In this document: one piece after another, positions 38,241-57,794 of the stretch
Layout: each line of letters starts with the position of its first letter
How positions within the stretch are numbered: the first letter of the stretch is position 1
Assembly: GCA_012270065.1 (NCBI GenBank)
Contig: JAAXJB010000032.1
Location: 1 to 60,388, forward strand
Reading direction: 5' to 3'
DNA: 60,388 bases
DNA from: Rubripirellula sp.
Lineage (GTDB): Bacteria; Planctomycetota; Planctomycetia; Pirellulales; Pirellulaceae
Program-made: the position numbers and the translations under genes
The notes under the pieces: model-generated
The model's input: only the letters and a program-made list of their open reading frames with translations
Told to the model about the DNA's origin: nothing
Databases searched by the model: none

Positions 38241-39878
38241 TCAGGCCGAAAGTCCAAGTCGCGATTTTAGGCGAGTTACCATCGCCACGGTGGCAAACGC
38301 GACAATGGCGAGACTGGTCAAAAAATAACCAAATACCACCCTCAGGTCTCCGACATTGGCGGGTTGTTCGTTGAATTCCTCTCGGAGCATCTCGTCCAGT
38401 GGAATCGCGAACAGGGCCGAAAATGGACTCGTGATCCCGAGCCATTCCATCGAACTGATGCTTTCGGGGTTGAAGTCAAGAATTCTCATCAGAGCCAAGG
38501 TCGTCGGTGGACCGATGTAAAGCAGCAGCAGGATTATGTAAGTCGTTAATAGAGCGATGGATGTTTTCTCCGTGAACAGCGAGCAAGTCAGTGCTACCGT
38601 TGAATTGACCAGACACACCAGAACCACAACCATGAACATTGCAATCACGGCTCCAATGTTCGACCAGAACAGGTTGTTGAGTCCCGTGCCCAGAAGCAAT
38701 GGCCAAAGCAGGAATGAGGTCAGGACGGCGGAAATTCGGAAGCCGACAATGAACTTGCCCCAGAGAATCTGCCATGGAGTCAGGGTTGTGGTCAGTAACA
38801 GATCGAGCGTTTGGCGTTCGCGTTCACTGGTCATGCTTCCGGCCAGGAATACCGGTCCGACAAGCATGCTGAAAACCACGACATACACGGGGAACCACGC
38901 ACACTGTTCCTGTTTCCAGAAAAGAAAAATGCCCATCAATGGAATAGCAAGCAGCATGCTGATCTGGATGACCAGACGGAGCATCAGGGTGCCCTGGCTG
39001 AAGATCTCGCTGTGGATTTCCTTGTCGTAAACCGGGTTGGTACCGTCGGGCATCAGTTGACGTTTCTTTGGGGGGGCAAACAGTCGGTCCGGGAATTGAT
39101 CCGGCTGAATGACCAGACCCACTGCTTCTTCCGCCTCTTTTTCCAGGTCAATCACCTCTTTCCCCTCACTTCCAACGTCGGGCGGGTAGAGCATCCGTCC
39201 CGCCGCCGCGGAGCACATCAAAATGGCTGCGGTCAGAGCGAATGCGGGGAAAATCAGAAGTGCAATCTTCAGACGTAATTCACCAGAATCTGTAAATGCC
39301 ATCCACGTGCTGATCGCTGCGATCACCAGCGGCAGAATGATCAGATAACTGACGACCAACGAACTGCTCGTGCGTGAAAAGTAGCTGCTGCAAAGTACGC
39401 CGATCGAACCAAACAGAATTACCGAAACGATCAGTCCGGTATAAGCTGCCAGTACTTCATACACACTGACGCCCCCCAAGGGCAAACAGAGTACGATGAT
39501 CGGCAGTGACCCCAGAATCAGCATGCCCAAATGCGTCAGCGACGCCACCATTTTTCCAAGAATCACGGCGCCGGGACGCAACGGGCTTGCCAGCAGCATC
39601 TCGTAGGTCAAACGCTCCTTTTCGCCAGTGATCGCACCAGCAGCAAAGCTGGGAGCCATCAGCGATGCAATGACATATTGCCCCAGAAAGAAAAGATCCA
39701 CCAGTTGCTTTGCAGATTGGGGATTGGATGTCAGGTCAAGAACGGTGTCTGATGGCCAAGCTACGATCACAACAGCGGATAACAGCATCTGATACAACGC
39801 CAGCAGCACGAAAGCGCGAAGCGTTCGCAGGTTGACGAGCAACTCACGCTGAAGCACCGGATTTTCAAATACATACAT
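38241..39878 (-). CDS. ABC-2 type transporter permease, internally duplicated
   Basis: 545 residues with about 12 hydrophobic segments in two homologous halves. The first begins ENPVLQREL (residue ~5) and has APSFAAGAITGEKERLTYEMLLASPL. The second begins NPVYDKEI (residue ~281) and has VFLAGSMTSERERQTLDLLLTTTL. Between them is a soluble acidic linker (about 235-275). It belongs to the ABC-2 exporter family (Gld/Nos-type permeases). No ATPase gene is adjacent in this window. A start at 39878 (MYVFENPVLQ) is preferred over a 34-codon extension that would overlap epmB. Confidence 0.85.
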   Translation of the reverse strand: MYVFENPVLQRELLVNLRTLRAFVLLALYQMLLSAVVIVAWPSDTVLDLTSNPQSAKQLVDLFFLGQYVIASLMAPSFAAGAITGEKERLTYEMLLASPLRPGAVILGKMVASLTHLGMLILGSLPIIVLCLPLGGVSVYEVLAAYTGLIVSVILFGSIGVLCSSYFSRTSSSLVVSYLIILPLVIAAISTWMAFTDSGELRLKIALLIFPAFALTAAILMCSAAAGRMLYPPDVGSEGKEVIDLEKEAEEAVGLVIQPDQFPDRLFAPPKKRQLMPDGTNPVYDKEIHSEIFSQGTLMLRLVIQISMLLAIPLMGIFLFWKQEQCAWFPVYVVVFSMLVGPVFLAGSMTSERERQTLDLLLTTTLTPWQILWGKFIVGFRISAVLTSFLLWPLLLGTGLNNLFWSNIGAVIAMFMVVVLVCLVNSTVALTCSLFTEKTSIALLTTYIILLLLYIGPPTTLALMRILDFNPESISSMEWLGITSPFSALFAIPLDEMLREEFNEQPANVGDLRVVFGYFLTSLAIVAFATVAMVTRLKSRLGLSA

Positions 39879-39894
39879 GGCGTTTTCCGTCGCG

Positions 39895-41031
39895 CTATGA
39901 ACTGCCGTTCGTGGTGAATGTCTGAATAGGAGACTTTGATTTTTCTCCCGGTTTCTCGACAACGTATTGTGGTACTGCAAAACCGGGTAACTCTGAACGC
40001 AGATCCTCGATGATCTTCATCCCCGTTTCGATGGGGACTTCAAAATGAGTTGCTCCACGGACACGGTCAAGCTGGTGCAGGTAGTATGGCTGAATTCGAT
40101 GATTCACCAGCAGGCGGCAAAGTTCGATTAGCGTTTCTGACCGGTCATTCACACCACGCAACAGAACCGACTGATTCAAGACCGGGATGCCAGCGTCAAT
40201 CATTGCCCCCATGCCCGAAAGGACCGAATCAGAAAGCTCGTGTGGGTGATTGGCATGTATCACCATCCAGGTCGCAAGCCGGCTGGACGATAGCATGTCC
40301 AGGAGCTGCCCAGTGACCCGTTGTGGAATCACCACTGGCATTCGGGAGTGAATGCGTAGTCGTTTCAGATGGTGGATTTTCTCCAGAGCAGACATGAGTT
40401 CCTGCAATTTTTCGTCGCTGGTGGTCAGTGGATCACCCCCACTGAGAATCACCTCTTCAATATCTGGGTGCTGCTCAATGTACTCGATTGATGGCAACCA
40501 GTCGTTCTGGCGGGATCCGGCTTCCCGATAAGGAAATTCTCGACGAAAGCAGTAACGGCAGTGAATTCCGCAGGCCGCCGTGGTCAGGATCAAGGCTCGA
40601 CCCTCATATTTGTGCAATACCCCGGGGGACACCAGAGAGTTCAGGTCGCCAACCGGATCAGCTCCAAATCCCGCCTTCTCGGTTTGCTCATCCGTGACTG
40701 GCAATATCTGCCTTAAAAGAGGATCCTCAGCATCACCGGGGCGGATGCGGCTGATGTATTCAAGAGGGGCAAACGTGGGAAAGTCACGCTCACCAGCCAG
40801 TTTCCCGGCGGCATCCAGATCCTCTGCCGGGTCAGGCGGCAATCCAACAGTTTTCCGGAGCTCTGATCCCGACCGAATCGCACGTTTCATCGCCAGTTGC
40901 CATGAAACAGGTTCGACCATTGAGCCAGAGCCGTCTCCAGGAAGGTGAAAAGCGGTCGGGACAAACTCGCCGCTTGTCGCTAGAATCTTCTCGGATTGGT
41001 TGGTCGACCCGTTCCGCATTGCTCGAATCAA
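39895..41031 (-). CDS. epmB: EF-P (R)-beta-lysylation protein, lysine 2,3-aminomutase family
   Basis: 378 residues. Radical SAM motif CGIHCRYC (C154, C158, C161) with FRREFPY, EEVILSGGDPLTTSD, RLRIHSRMPVVIPQRV and LNQSVLLRGVNDRSETL, all family-typical. The C-terminal VPQYVVEKPGEKSKSP includes candidate PLP-lysine positions. EpmB isomerises lysine to beta-lysine for attachment to elongation factor P. It is divergent from efp across ~55 bases, which strongly supports the EF-P-specific assignment over a free lysine aminomutase. Confidence 0.92.
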   Translation of the reverse strand: MIRAMRNGSTNQSEKILATSGEFVPTAFHLPGDGSGSMVEPVSWQLAMKRAIRSGSELRKTVGLPPDPAEDLDAAGKLAGERDFPTFAPLEYISRIRPGDAEDPLLRQILPVTDEQTEKAGFGADPVGDLNSLVSPGVLHKYEGRALILTTAACGIHCRYCFRREFPYREAGSRQNDWLPSIEYIEQHPDIEEVILSGGDPLTTSDEKLQELMSALEKIHHLKRLRIHSRMPVVIPQRVTGQLLDMLSSSRLATWMVIHANHPHELSDSVLSGMGAMIDAGIPVLNQSVLLRGVNDRSETLIELCRLLVNHRIQPYYLHQLDRVRGATHFEVPIETGMKIIEDLRSELPGFAVPQYVVEKPGEKSKSPIQTFTTNGSS

Positions 41032-48456: not shown

Positions 48457-48615
48457 TCAGCTCTTGAGATTCCAGTGGGGCATCGTTTGAAGCAATTTTT
48501 GTTCGGTCAAATCGAATTTCAATGGCGTCAGAGTTGCGTTGCCCCGGCGCAATTCGGTCACGTCCGCCGGTTCTTGCGGCGGTTCTCTTGGTTGGGAAGA
48601 GAGTGCCCAGATCTA
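48457..48615 (-). pseudogene. surE: SurE C-terminal continuation beyond the amber codon
   Basis: Same frame as surE: TAG, then 51 sense codons and TGA. It includes PPQEPADVTELRRGNATLTP and LKFDLTEQKLLQTMPHWNL, matching the SurE C-terminal tail (TDxxAxxxGxxxxTPLxxDLT). The TAG replaces a residue that is probably Tyr (family context GREYYWAL), so one base change from TAC or TAT suffices. TAG also serves as a normal stop in several neighbours, so a general reassignment is unlikely. Options are sequencing error, a recent nonsense mutation or readthrough. Confidence 0.85.
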
Positions 48616-49218
48616 TTCCCTCCCTTCCGGATGCTTTCGTAGGTCGTAGCTGTGTCCGTACTGAGCAAGCCCCATCGGCACAATTTTAAGGTCTCGCGGA
48701 GCTTCGGTTGCGGCGGTGGGAATATTCAAGTTGAACAGGCCACCATTGGATTCGGGTTGTTTGACAATTCCGCCGATGACGTTGCGTGCGATCACTGCTG
48801 CGGACTGGAAATCCGGGTCCTCTGAGTACTCGAGAGATACTGCCACGCTGGTCAATCCAAAAAATGCGCCCTCAATTGCTGCTGCAACGGTTCCGCTGTA
48901 AAGCACGTTAATGCCGGCATTGAGGCCGTTGTTGATCCCGCTGACGACGAGGTCGACCGGGGATTCTCTGAGTAATTCACCAATGGAAAGCTTGACGCAG
49001 TCGGCTGGGGAGCCATCGACCGCCCAGGCCCAGTGTCGTCCATCACGATGAATCGACTTGCAGGTGAGCGGGGTCAGGAAGGTGATCGAGTGACCAACGC
49101 CGCTCTGTTCGGTCGCGGGAGCGACCACAATTACCTCTCCCAAGTGACGCAGTTGCTGTTCAAGCGCCGCCAGTCCGGGGGCGAAAACGCCGTCATCGTT
49201 GGTCAGCAGGATGCGCAT
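48613..49218 (-). CDS. surE: 5'/3'-nucleotidase SurE, interrupted by an in-frame TAG
   Basis: Dephosphorylates nucleoside monophosphates, acting in survival and nucleotide balance. From ATG 49218 (MRILLTNDDGVFAPGL, metal-binding DD) the family motifs are intact: VVAPATEQSGVGHSITF, VDGSPADCVKL, VVSGINNGLNAGINVLYSGTVAAAIEG. Translation hits TAG at 48613-48615 after 201 residues (ending KHPEGRE). The same frame then continues 51 codons as IWALSS...TELRRGNATLTPL...WNLKS to TGA at 48457-48459, clearly the SurE C-terminus. Together 253 codons, the length of E. coli SurE. See the separate entry for the tail. Confidence 0.88.
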   Translation of the reverse strand: MRILLTNDDGVFAPGLAALEQQLRHLGEVIVVAPATEQSGVGHSITFLTPLTCKSIHRDGRHWAWAVDGSPADCVKLSIGELLRESPVDLVVSGINNGLNAGINVLYSGTVAAAIEGAFFGLTSVAVSLEYSEDPDFQSAAVIARNVIGGIVKQPESNGGLFNLNIPTAATEAPRDLKIVPMGLAQYGHSYDLRKHPEGRE

Positions 49219-53513: not shown

Positions 53514-53579
53514 TCTTTGGCTGGATGCTGTTGATGAGTTCATGCTGACCTTGCTTCCTACCCTCACTCATTTTGTTTG

Positions 53580-56500
53580 ATGTCAAACACCCCGCCACCC
53601 GAAAAATTGAGCGAAACGCTTCATCGCTTGGCGGGGTACATGAATTTTTCATCAGGCGCCAGTGATCCTTCGATCATGGCTGCCTGGAACACGGTCTTCG
53701 ATATCGCCAGTGCCGGTGATCCATTGACTGGGCCTGCGGCTTGGTTGGTTGTCAAAGATTGGATTGAGGAGACGCTGCAAAAGCTTCAAGAGGATGAAGT
53801 TGCGTTTCGGGATTGCGAGCAGGCTTCGCGGCTTGCTTCTCTGTTGTGGAGTGAATTGCTTCCTGCGTATCTCGATTTCCATCGGGACCTGTTGTTCCAT
53901 CAGGTGCCTGAGATGTTGTTCAATGGTTTCTTCATGGCCAGAGCGGCAGATGCACTCTTGGCGGTTGGTTTGAGGGGTGATGATCAGCAGGTTGTTCGCG
54001 CAGCGATTGATCGACTTGATGATTTTGTCGGGTATCGCCCGGTTGCGATGTTGGAAAATCGCACTTGCCAACCTTACCGGCATGAATTTGTATGCCCTGT
54101 TCCACTCTATGTAAAAGATGCTGGCATTTCGGCTGGGCCTTATCGCGAGATCATTGAACTGGCGATCGGGAAATTGGCAACGACTGCAGACGATGTGTTG
54201 CGTTCAGCTTCTTTCGATTTGGAACGTGTCGAGGAGATCGCCATTGATCCCCGGGCTTATGACTTCGACCATCCCGTCAACCGCCGGCCAAATTATCATT
54301 TCGGGGGGTGGGATGAACGTTCGATTTCACAGGATGGGTTCTATCACCGGTTTGTTCTCAGGCAAGTTACGCTCGATTCGCTTTTGAAGCGTGCAGCCGG
54401 CAAGACCGGTGTAGAACGTCGTGAAAAGGTTGACGAAGCAGCGTGTGTGCTGGCGGGAACCATGCTGATGGCATCGGGGATCACTGGTTGGGGGCCGGGA
54501 GCTTACACCAGTGATATCACGTTGGGCGGATTGATGAAGCCGATTGCGGCTTATCGCGATGCGTACTACGAAGATTCCATGAAGCAAATCGGCGGTGAGC
54601 ATGCTGAGCGTCTCGAGAGTGAGCAGAAGCTGCGACGCCAGCCTTTTGGCGCAGCAAGGCAACACTTGAACGCCGCTCTCGCTGAGCGTCGCGCTGCTCA
54701 ACTGCAGCATGTGCAGTTGGCTCGACTTTATGCCCGCATGGGCTATCCTGATGCAGCCAAGCGGCAAACTGATACGGTCTCGGCAGCATCCGCCCGAATG
54801 ATGTGTCGCATCGACTGTCTCATGACCTTGGGGCTGCGAGCGATCAGAGCGGGCGATTTGGATGCTGCTGTCAAGGTGCCCGCTGTCGCCTTCGATCTGA
54901 TGAAACGGGCAATTGAATGCGGAGCGTTGATTGATCCGTGGGACATTCTTGCCAATGGAGGCAATTTCAGTCTTTATGCCGGACCCGAGAGCGGTGTGCA
55001 CGATTCCCGCGTTGATGACATGCTGTATCTCGTTGAGCAGGTTTTCGGCTACACGGCCAGAGTCTGGAGCGAGGCAGCGGCACGCAATGACCAGGCTGCG
55101 TACAGCGAAATGGATAACCGCTATCGGGAGATGGCCGAGTGGTGGCGTGTTTACGCGGCACACACGGTCGAGTCCATCGAAGCCGCTGATCCATTGGAGT
55201 CGTATGAATCGGCGAAGTTGGTTGCTCGTGCTTTAAGGCTCTGGCACGAGGGCGGAGCAGAAGCAGGCAATGTTGCTTTTTGGGCGCCCCATGCCGATCT
55301 TTTTGATTCTCCCAGAGCGTATGCGCTGGTGATTTCAGCATTGCTGGAACGTCGCGATTTTGTGCCCGCGATGGCTTTGCTCGTGCACTGGCTGAGTAAT
55401 GCTGAGCGTGTGGGGCTGCGGCTGGGTGGGAGTTCTTTGCCGAGGCTTTCCGAACGCTGGCTATTGCATCTACGTCAGTCTGCCAGCGGTGAGCCTGATG
55501 AGTTTGGGGAATCTTCGCTCAACCAGGATGTTGATGGAGACACGGCTGCCATCTGGCCACTGGTCCGGAAGATGTTTGATTATTTTGAGGCCAATGCCGA
55601 GGAATTCTGGGCCGCTCCGAGTTTCATGCTTGGTGAAAAACAGAAGAAACCACGAGATTGGGATCGGGAGTTGACCGCGGCTGATTCCGAAGATGGAGAC
55701 GCTGGCGAAGGTCTTTATGACGCGGCTTACGAGGGTGTCACCTATCGAGACACCACCGATGATGGCAACGAAGGGTCAGTGTTCGGTTTTGGGGAAGAGC
55801 CTGGGCATGATGCGCTGGAGGCAGAGTCCAAGAGGCTGATTGAACATCTCAATTTCATGCAGTCGCTGGCTCGGATGTGGGCAGTCGCAGCAGACATTGC
55901 AGTGGCCGACCAGGATGAGTCTGATCTGCAGGATCGTCTCGGTTCGCTTCAGTCGTGGGCAAGACGGGCAAAAGAAAATCGCATCGGTTTGCTGGAGTTG
56001 CTTGATTCCGTGCGTGAGTTTCCCATGGCGCCAGCAGGTACCGACAAGGAATCGATGCGCAGCTACGACCGTCGCAGGGTGCTGCGTGACTCATTGATGG
56101 AACGGATCATCGGCACGGCTGTCGAAATGTCAGACTCGCGGCGTCTGATCAGCGGTGCCCTGCTTGCTTTGTCGGGTGAGAAATCGAACCCACTCGCCGA
56201 AGAAGAAATGGTGGAAGACGACGCACAGGCAGTTCGTATGTTCGGCGCTCTGATTGCCAGTGATCAGGATCGGGTTCGTGAGTTGTTTCCCCCGTTTCTG
56301 GATGCGTTGCGTGATAAGAACCTTCTCTATATCCCGCTCTCCAGAGGAGGAGATCCTGTCAAGATTTATGTCGCCCGGCTACGGCAACGGGTGCTGCGAC
56401 ACCTGATGCACTGGTTGCCCCGCCGCGGTTTGCTTGTTGAGACCTGCCGGTTGATCGAGACGGCACGAGAGATGGAAACAAGTAACCCGATCGGAGCAGG

Positions 56501-57794
56501 GGCTGTAACTGAATTCGATGGTCTGTTTCGTGCCGGATTCCGTTCGCTTGTTGCATCGCTGGTCGAGTCGGTCCGGCAAAGTGCATTGAATGACCTTCGG
56601 GCGGCAGCCCAGGAAGATTCCACGACGGAAGAAATCGATGCTTCTGGAAGTGATGATAAACAGGTTCAGGATGAGCGGACCAAAAAGCTTCCGCAGGAAG
56701 AAATTGTCACGGGGGCTGGAAAAAGTGATGGCAAGGACCGGGCTGATCAGTTGGACGTCGTTCAAACCTCCGGGCCCGATGAGGTCGATTGTGCCGAAAC
56801 GCTCGTGCCGTTTCTTGAAAGAGTGGCTGAGACCATGCTGGGAAGCTGGTTGGCACACAGCCAGACCCTGCGATTGTCTCCATTGGAATCTGTCATTGAT
56901 CCACAAAAATGGAAACAGCTTGTTGCCTTTGTCAAGGATTATGGAGATCCGGTCTTTACGCAGATGTTTCTCCAGTTGGGCAATGTTCGCGCGATTTTGC
57001 ATCAGGGGGTGTCGCAATGGCTGACACGTGCCATGGAAGAAGGCGAAGATCATCTTGCTGATACGAGATTGGTTGAGGATCTCGAGAATGGATTTCTGCA
57101 GGTTGCAGAAGCAGATCGATGGATGACGCTCGTTTATGAAGCTTTGATTGATCACCATACCGAGTACCTTGATTACAACAGTACGACAACCCAGAGTGAT
57201 CGTGGTGAACTGGTTTACATGTTTCTCGATTTCCTGCGGTTGCGTGTCAAGTACGAACGCATTGCCTGGAATCTGAAGCCAGTGATGTGGGCGCACGAAG
57301 TGCTGGTGCGAAGCGGTTTGGAAAAAGCGGCGATCATGTGGCGGCGCAGCCTGAGTGAACGCATTGGGGCAGAAGCAGATGTTTACGTCCAGCGGCTCCG
57401 ACAGTTGCAGACAGAGTATGCGATGCGAATGCCCACGGTAGCGGATCGCATTCTGGAACGGTTCGTGCAGCCCATGACCATCGACCGCATGCGTGCCCTG
57501 GTGGGACCCGCGATGCGGGATGCCGAAGAGAATCGGGATAGCCGGTCCTTTGAATTGTTGGAACAGGAGGCTGAATTGTTGACACGACATCCCACCGGTG
57601 TTGGCCTCGATGTTCCTGCGTGGTTGGATGCGCTTGAGGAAGAGGTCGAGCAGCTAGCAAAACGCAGAGCCAGTAGCGAAATCGACCCGCAGTCGCTGAT
57701 GACCATCTCGATTGTCCCGCTTTCACTCGATGAATTGAATGAGCAGCTCAATCAAGCTACCCGTCAGGGACGCCGTTTGCCGCACATGAAATGA
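53580..57794 (+). CDS. Very large cytoplasmic protein of unknown function
   Basis: 1404 residues with no signal peptide or clear membrane helices. Mostly helical, rich in Ala/Leu/Glu/Arg. The N-terminal ~350 residues look globular (e.g. PYRHEFVCPVPLY, NYHFGGWDERSISQDGFYHRFVLRQVT). The middle resembles helical repeats. Two acidic low-complexity linkers occur around residues 700-745 (EDGDAGEG... FGFGEEPGHD) and 1000-1060 (EEIDASGSDDKQ... KSDGKDRADQ). No recognised enzyme motif. ATG 53580 has no obvious Shine-Dalgarno. It is followed by a sugar isomerase-like gene. Function unknown; it resembles no family I can name. Confidence 0.8.
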   Translation: MSNTPPPEKLSETLHRLAGYMNFSSGASDPSIMAAWNTVFDIASAGDPLTGPAAWLVVKDWIEETLQKLQEDEVAFRDCEQASRLASLLWSELLPAYLDFHRDLLFHQVPEMLFNGFFMARAADALLAVGLRGDDQQVVRAAIDRLDDFVGYRPVAMLENRTCQPYRHEFVCPVPLYVKDAGISAGPYREIIELAIGKLATTADDVLRSASFDLERVEEIAIDPRAYDFDHPVNRRPNYHFGGWDERSISQDGFYHRFVLRQVTLDSLLKRAAGKTGVERREKVDEAACVLAGTMLMASGITGWGPGAYTSDITLGGLMKPIAAYRDAYYEDSMKQIGGEHAERLESEQKLRRQPFGAARQHLNAALAERRAAQLQHVQLARLYARMGYPDAAKRQTDTVSAASARMMCRIDCLMTLGLRAIRAGDLDAAVKVPAVAFDLMKRAIECGALIDPWDILANGGNFSLYAGPESGVHDSRVDDMLYLVEQVFGYTARVWSEAAARNDQAAYSEMDNRYREMAEWWRVYAAHTVESIEAADPLESYESAKLVARALRLWHEGGAEAGNVAFWAPHADLFDSPRAYALVISALLERRDFVPAMALLVHWLSNAERVGLRLGGSSLPRLSERWLLHLRQSASGEPDEFGESSLNQDVDGDTAAIWPLVRKMFDYFEANAEEFWAAPSFMLGEKQKKPRDWDRELTAADSEDGDAGEGLYDAAYEGVTYRDTTDDGNEGSVFGFGEEPGHDALEAESKRLIEHLNFMQSLARMWAVAADIAVADQDESDLQDRLGSLQSWARRAKENRIGLLELLDSVREFPMAPAGTDKESMRSYDRRRVLRDSLMERIIGTAVEMSDSRRLISGALLALSGEKSNPLAEEEMVEDDAQAVRMFGALIASDQDRVRELFPPFLDALRDKNLLYIPLSRGGDPVKIYVARLRQRVLRHLMHWLPRRGLLVETCRLIETAREMETSNPIGAGAVTEFDGLFRAGFRSLVASLVESVRQSALNDLRAAAQEDSTTEEIDASGSDDKQVQDERTKKLPQEEIVTGAGKSDGKDRADQLDVVQTSGPDEVDCAETLVPFLERVAETMLGSWLAHSQTLRLSPLESVIDPQKWKQLVAFVKDYGDPVFTQMFLQLGNVRAILHQGVSQWLTRAMEEGEDHLADTRLVEDLENGFLQVAEADRWMTLVYEALIDHHTEYLDYNSTTTQSDRGELVYMFLDFLRLRVKYERIAWNLKPVMWAHEVLVRSGLEKAAIMWRRSLSERIGAEADVYVQRLRQLQTEYAMRMPTVADRILERFVQPMTIDRMRALVGPAMRDAEENRDSRSFELLEQEAELLTRHPTGVGLDVPAWLDALEEEVEQLAKRRASSEIDPQSLMTISIVPLSLDELNEQLNQATRQGRRLPHMK

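Follow-up and report, generated by a model that had tools for sequence, protein, structure and literature searches.

The locus examined here raises the question of whether an amber codon inside a conserved bacterial gene is a real mutation, an error of sequencing or assembly, or a codon that is still translated. The gene is surE, located on the minus strand of a 60,388-nt stretch of DNA of Rubripirellula sp. (assembly GCA_012270065.1, contig JAAXJB010000032.1, positions 1 to 60,388), referred to below as the window, and the TAG is placed about four fifths of the way along a frame that is otherwise intact. Of these three options, which were left side by side in a preliminary description of the sequence, we favour mutation, while readthrough by a suppressor and a simple one-base error did not stand. 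In our best explanation, to which we assign a probability of about 0.58, the TAG is a real nonsense change, recent and specific to this lineage, in an oligomerization hairpin of SurE that either was altered beforehand or mutated together with it. This would be an ordinary loss of the enzyme, not a novel use of the genetic code.

The interrupted surE frame

Translation of the window showed that the frame runs from start to end as MRILLTNDDG...HPEGRE-TAG-IWALSS...GNATLTPLKFDLTEQ...NLKS-TGA and is composed of 201 codons, the TAG and 51 sense codons followed by TGA (Table 1), which bears out the total of 253 codons proposed earlier. The same length, 253 residues, is given for Salmonella SurE in a structural report (PMC3567009). 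The 201-residue head matches the Pfam SurE model (PF01975) with residues 3–187 (197.9 bits, with a cut-off of 22.1). Residues D8, D9, S39 and N96 are invariant in all 40 aligned sequences, including the present one, and N96 presumably has a role in the active site of SurE. For D8, D9 and the loop 39–51, metal-site or active-site roles are described in the same report (PMC3567009).

The distal frame alone gave no match to any Pfam model, since the SurE model matches no further than residue 187, whether the head or the read-through protein is queried. It is nonetheless a SurE tail, because the full-length SurE of a relative aligns across the TAG over residues 1–252 (86%, with one TAG inside). 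The read-through protein was also aligned to solved SurEs up to residues 242, 247 and 250 (three alignments). Translation and these cross-TAG alignments confirmed the central observation of the preliminary description, i.e. an in-frame amber codon in surE with the SurE tail behind it.

Table 1. Features of the surE locus, in window coordinates.
Feature	Position	Strand	Remarks
surE, whole frame including the TAG	49218 to 48457	(-)	253 codons counting the TAG
surE frame ahead of the stop (predicted truncated product, N-terminal Rossmann-like catalytic part)	48616..49218	(-)	201 codons
In-frame TAG (codon 202)	48613..48615	(-)	Tyr codon in relatives
Distal surE frame	48457..48612	(-)	51 sense codons and TGA (48457-48459)
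Codons 190-215, patch of fast change surrounding the TAG; the hairpin appears to match the tetramerization loop of solved SurEs	48574..48651	(-)	
Codons 216-253, core strand (228-233) and C-terminal helix (240-249)	48460..48573	(-)	change on the lineage no higher than elsewhere
GGAGG, Shine-Dalgarno-like, just ahead of the TAG	48619..48623	(-)	
34-nt quasi-palindrome, centre AGATCT adjoining the TAG	48595..48628	(.)	12/17 pairs

Codon 202 in relatives and the genetic code

The closest named records belong to Rhodopirellula, Rubripirellula and other planctomycetes. Opposite the TAG, TAT or TAC is found in 29/29 relatives, whose loci were fetched from a search of 60 genomes (59 with a match to some SurE), and a Tyr codon occupies the same position in 80/80 named loci, a set that overlaps with the 29. 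The surrounding residues are GRDYYWAL in the closest relatives and GREYYWAL in one of them, in agreement with the "GREYYWAL-like" context suggested previously. In an order-wide search (396 genomes, 331 with a match), a stop inside the gene was present, among the matches listed, only in the source genome and in one other (G229), in which it is the normal terminator at codon 251. As far as these data go, the TAG is private to the source genome. A TAG conserved in sister genomes, which the preliminary description had named as a sign of readthrough, was thus seen in 0/29 and 0/80 relatives.

The supposition that amber is an ordinary stop in this genome held: among 36 ORFs picked from those listed for the window, the stop codon is TAG in 6, TGA in 29 and TAA in 1, and TAG is the terminator of surE itself in 9/29 relatives. 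Release factor RF1 is encoded, scoring above its curated cut-off. The anticodon CTA (CUA) was absent from the 41 distinct tRNA genes found with ARAGORN (42 loci and regions scanned); the covariance search covered 150 of the 283 tRNA candidates of a first look, and an unusual tRNA could therefore have been overlooked. A direct pattern search for a suppressor tRNA returned only one Glu and one Leu tRNA. For PylS, there was no match to TIGR03912, a model of the N-terminal domain only, which was controlled on 14 genomes with Methanosarcina acetivorans positive. Given that no CTA tRNA and no PylS N-terminal match were found and that RF1 is present, the dependence of SurE on a suppressor, considered earlier, is unsupported. 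One of the 41 tRNAs named by ARAGORN is a selenocysteine tRNA on contig 29 (32378–32469, locus L155), which reached only 19.9 bits with the Rfam tRNA model.

A fast-changed patch around the TAG

The distribution of changes along the gene was analyzed in 30 SurE frames of exactly 253 codons, i.e. the source frame and 29 relatives, which are only partly the same as the 29 of the Tyr-codon count. Frames with any other codon count were excluded, as was one locus of the right length that was out of register without gaps (L030). The tree was built from codons 1–190 only and the measure was the share of the terminal branch in the total tree length. This analysis revealed that the source branch takes 2.9% of the tree in codons 1–189 (rank 11/30), 20.3% in codons 190–215 (rank 1) and 3.2% in codons 216–253 (rank 8). 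At finer resolution, the shares were 23.9% (codons 190–201), 14.3% (203–217), 2.3% (218–235) and 2.8% (236–253), so the raised part starts before the TAG and spans both sides of it. The numbers of private residues in the three parts were 3, 7 and 4, respectively. The hairpin boundary was set after viewing the sequence, and a scan for the densest 26 codons, which is independent of that choice, gave 8 private residues for the source frame versus at most 5 in any of the 29 others, a maximum reached by 6/20,000 flat and 69/20,000 variability-weighted shuffles.

Four codons that are invariant in the 29 relatives (192, 196, 202 and 207) changed within 16 codons and with no indel, and the altered invariant or near-invariant neighbours of the TAG are codons 192, 196, 203 and 207. 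The preliminary description proposed base calls at 48613–48615 as a check for an assembly error; a simple one-base miscall there is rejected, as these neighbouring codons are altered too. Differences at codon positions 1, 2 and 3 amounted to 29.6, 27.0 and 55.6% in the patch (codons 190–217) versus 10.6, 3.9 and 55.9% in the head. The value for position 2 compares with a maximum of 7.4% among 21 near-relative pairs, while that for position 1 is little above the near-relative maximum (25.9%). The hairpin-to-head ratio was highest in the source genome (3.58; the next being 2.55). Raised positions 1 and 2 with a flat position 3 look like changed selection, in a comparison of 27 codons in which position 3 is near saturation. 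Beyond the patch (codons 218–253), position 1 differed at 19.4%, versus a near-relative mean of 11.2% and maximum of 22.2%, and a leave-one-out Fisher comparison of changed invariant sites gave 2/109 for codons 1–201 versus 2/15 for codons 202–253, with the TAG counted (p = 0.07).

Private changes were also compared across 11 window genes with at least 5 relatives each (12 for surE). In the source genome, the surE patch was the densest of all (12 in 26 codons, the next having 7). In other genomes there were four denser patches (13–21 in 26), all in the gene at 53577–57794, and three that equal 12. The gene at 53577–57794 (plus strand) is a 1405-residue ORF whose divergence between relatives is very uneven. 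The minus-strand gene at 38241–39980 has, from codon 479, 7 private residues in 26 codons in the source genome, with as many as 4 in 26 codons falling on sites that do not vary among the five relatives compared.

Two mechanisms that could have produced such a patch were considered and rejected. For gene conversion within the genome, the 121-base patch matches only itself, apart from nine chance matches of 14–19 bases; the SurE paralogue on contig 57 was rejected as well, as it is without the GRxYYW hairpin, and this rejection covers the source genome only. Templated mutagenesis was suggested by the quasi-palindrome adjoining the TAG, whose centre forms 3–9 pairs in the 29 relatives; 9 of 60,354 window centres reach 12 pairs, as does one of the 29 relatives elsewhere in surE. 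By eye, neither arm copies the opposite arm of the relatives, RNA folding here is nothing out of the ordinary, and the test was picked after the patch had been seen, so the quasi-palindrome is kept only as a curiosity.

The main rival of a real nonsense change is a local error, in which some 80 bases surrounding the TAG would be wrong in the assembly and the true surE intact; we consider this rather unlikely. In its favour, the interruption was read from one assembly of one strain, the head and distal tail look as normal as those of an intact gene, and a surE match is present in 238/253 good genomes of the order, so that a loss would be unusual. Moreover, 28 of 73 re-sequenced interrupted genes of M. 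smegmatis turned out to be errors (PMC1852416). However, none of the 28 was a miscalled base, with a method that favoured frameshifts (PMC1852416), and the cluster of four changed invariant codons without an indel is not a single-base miscall. The excess at codon positions 1 and 2 but not 3 also speaks against an error, weakly, for the reasons of saturation and length given above. The assembly (6.99 Mb in 122 contigs) is 99.53% complete and 0.96% contaminated, and the TAG lies inside a 165-kb contig. The surE neighbourhood, in which Pfam recognized GMP synthase, transketolase and GroES/GroEL, is syntenic with that of the one relative compared (G006), whose frames gave 16 alignments with the window (identity above 66%, more than 150 columns). 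Stops occurred in 5 of these: three lie just upstream of a window gene start, one is antisense to the ORF at 53577–57794 and one is the surE TAG, and in the other 15 alignments no stop falls inside a window gene on that gene's coding strand.

Predicted consequence and competing readings

The read-through protein, with the TAG taken as Tyr, was modelled from 40 sequences (mean pLDDT 86.5, pTM 0.85). The model contains a hairpin of strands 191–195 and 201–205 (pLDDT 62–74), located in its less certain part (block means of 62–75 for residues 181–220), followed by strand 228–233 and helix 240–249. Each of the 50 listed PDB matches is a SurE or carries a name that refers to SurE, with query TM-scores of about 0.71–0.78. 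In Salmonella SurE, residues 179–210 constitute a swapped tetramerization loop and 227–253 a swapped C-terminal helix, and the hinge mutants H234A and D230A/H234A are mostly inactive (about 5% activity for H234A), as stated in the report on that enzyme (PMC3567009). Judging from the order of elements and the D-x-T motif after the core strand, the fast-changed patch appears to correspond to this tetramerization loop.

Under the standard code, the complete tetramerization hairpin and the swapped helix are encoded only via the frame beyond the TAG. If the stop is real, ribosomes would halt at codon 202, within the second of the two strands of the hairpin by which, judging from the model and the solved SurEs, SurE dimers and tetramers would be joined, and would release a 201-residue protein. 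According to the model, half of the hairpin would be missing from this product, together with the core strand and the swapped C-terminal helix; it would keep the catalytic, metal-binding half, and without those elements it is probably unstable or inactive. The loss of oligomerization elements anticipated in the preliminary description is thereby backed by the model and by the Salmonella report (PMC3567009). Compared with the solved SurEs (PF01975; 4zg5, 2wqk, 5ksq, 1j9j, 2v4n), the source protein is alike in the catalytic part and, when read through the TAG, over the full length, and differs in the stop at codon 202, the altered tetramerization hairpin and a predicted product without the swapped helix.

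The gene bears one mark of a pseudogene, an early stop that interrupts a frame conserved in other respects, and surE resembles interrupted coding sequences and young bacterial pseudogenes in having one in-frame stop in a conserved gene of one lineage. Unlike in these, its changes are not scattered over the dead part but cluster within a single hairpin, before as well as after the stop. Counted against loss are the head, which has no sign of relaxed selection, and the distal tail, which shows no clear decay, unlike what is expected of a long-dead gene. A long-dead tail would drift throughout, and this one has not; hence either the stop is of recent date or translation of the tail continues. With a recent nonsense change, the well-kept tail is explained by the late appearance of the stop on a long branch, at a time when the hairpin was already free of constraint or as one of the same cluster of changes. 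Interrupted bacterial genes are already well known and are documented to comprise both true mutations and errors (PMC1852416); the present interruption was not found in a limited search of open-licence papers. A young nonsense allele is ordinary, but this one is in a gene matched in 238/253 good genomes of the order, and it suggests that the tetramerization hairpin was the first part of surE to change.

The alternative by which the tail is still made is a leaky amber, with near-cognate decoding of the TAG yielding a little full-length SurE and selection keeping the tail, and it is decidedly unlikely. It would account for the tail that is not decaying, and it agrees with a dN/dS argument of Belinky et al. 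that bacteria frequently read through in-frame stops over short periods (PMC7918605). Nevertheless, a late stop accounts for the tail equally well, and the tRNA, PylS and RF1 results and the absence of the TAG from every relative read stand against it. RNA folding around the TAG is no stronger than in shuffled sequences (z −0.16; 76/200 at least as good). With no unusual RNA structure and no stop in common with relatives, a programmed readthrough element was rejected. The surE frame resembles the stops under purifying selection of Belinky et al. (2021) in being conserved past the stop, but in that large-scale study the stops are common to at least 2 species, and the surE TAG is private (PMC7918605).

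The tail could also be made separately: the stop would open the hairpin, a second start would give a tail protein, the pieces would assemble and the hairpin would drift. Such a split SurE is most improbable. It fits a change confined to the hairpin, and the GGAGG stands 6 bases ahead of the codon after the TAG, but the codon at that spacing is ATC, unusual as a start, and one relative (L016) has the same GGAGG and an intact gene. The first in-frame ATG, GTG or TTG is the GTG of codon 220, 51 bases past the stop, and a distance of about 20 nt reportedly nearly abolished reinitiation in six gene pairs tested in H. volcanii and E. coli (PMC10666635). Overall, leaky or split translation is unlikely, with nothing specific in favour of either. 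A broader proposal is that SurE functions although its tetramerization hairpin is open, with the TAG retained and the tail supplied either through leaky decoding or as a separate piece; this is very unlikely. If true, it would mean that the hairpin alone drifts while the catalytic part, the core strand and the swapped helix remain constrained, and SurE would be a naturally cut, domain-swapped enzyme. A tail that is still translated would be a natural test of the need for a covalent link between the catalytic half and the swapped helix.

Irrespective of the fate of the interrupted gene, the genome contains a second SurE-family gene on contig 57 (approximately 65136–65885; locus L002:1480-2229). 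It has 249 codons from an upstream ATG, no internal stop and a shorter tail ending in GNITISECERPFAL, and it may cover part of the SurE function. More than one SurE match was found in 14/21 genus-mates, too.
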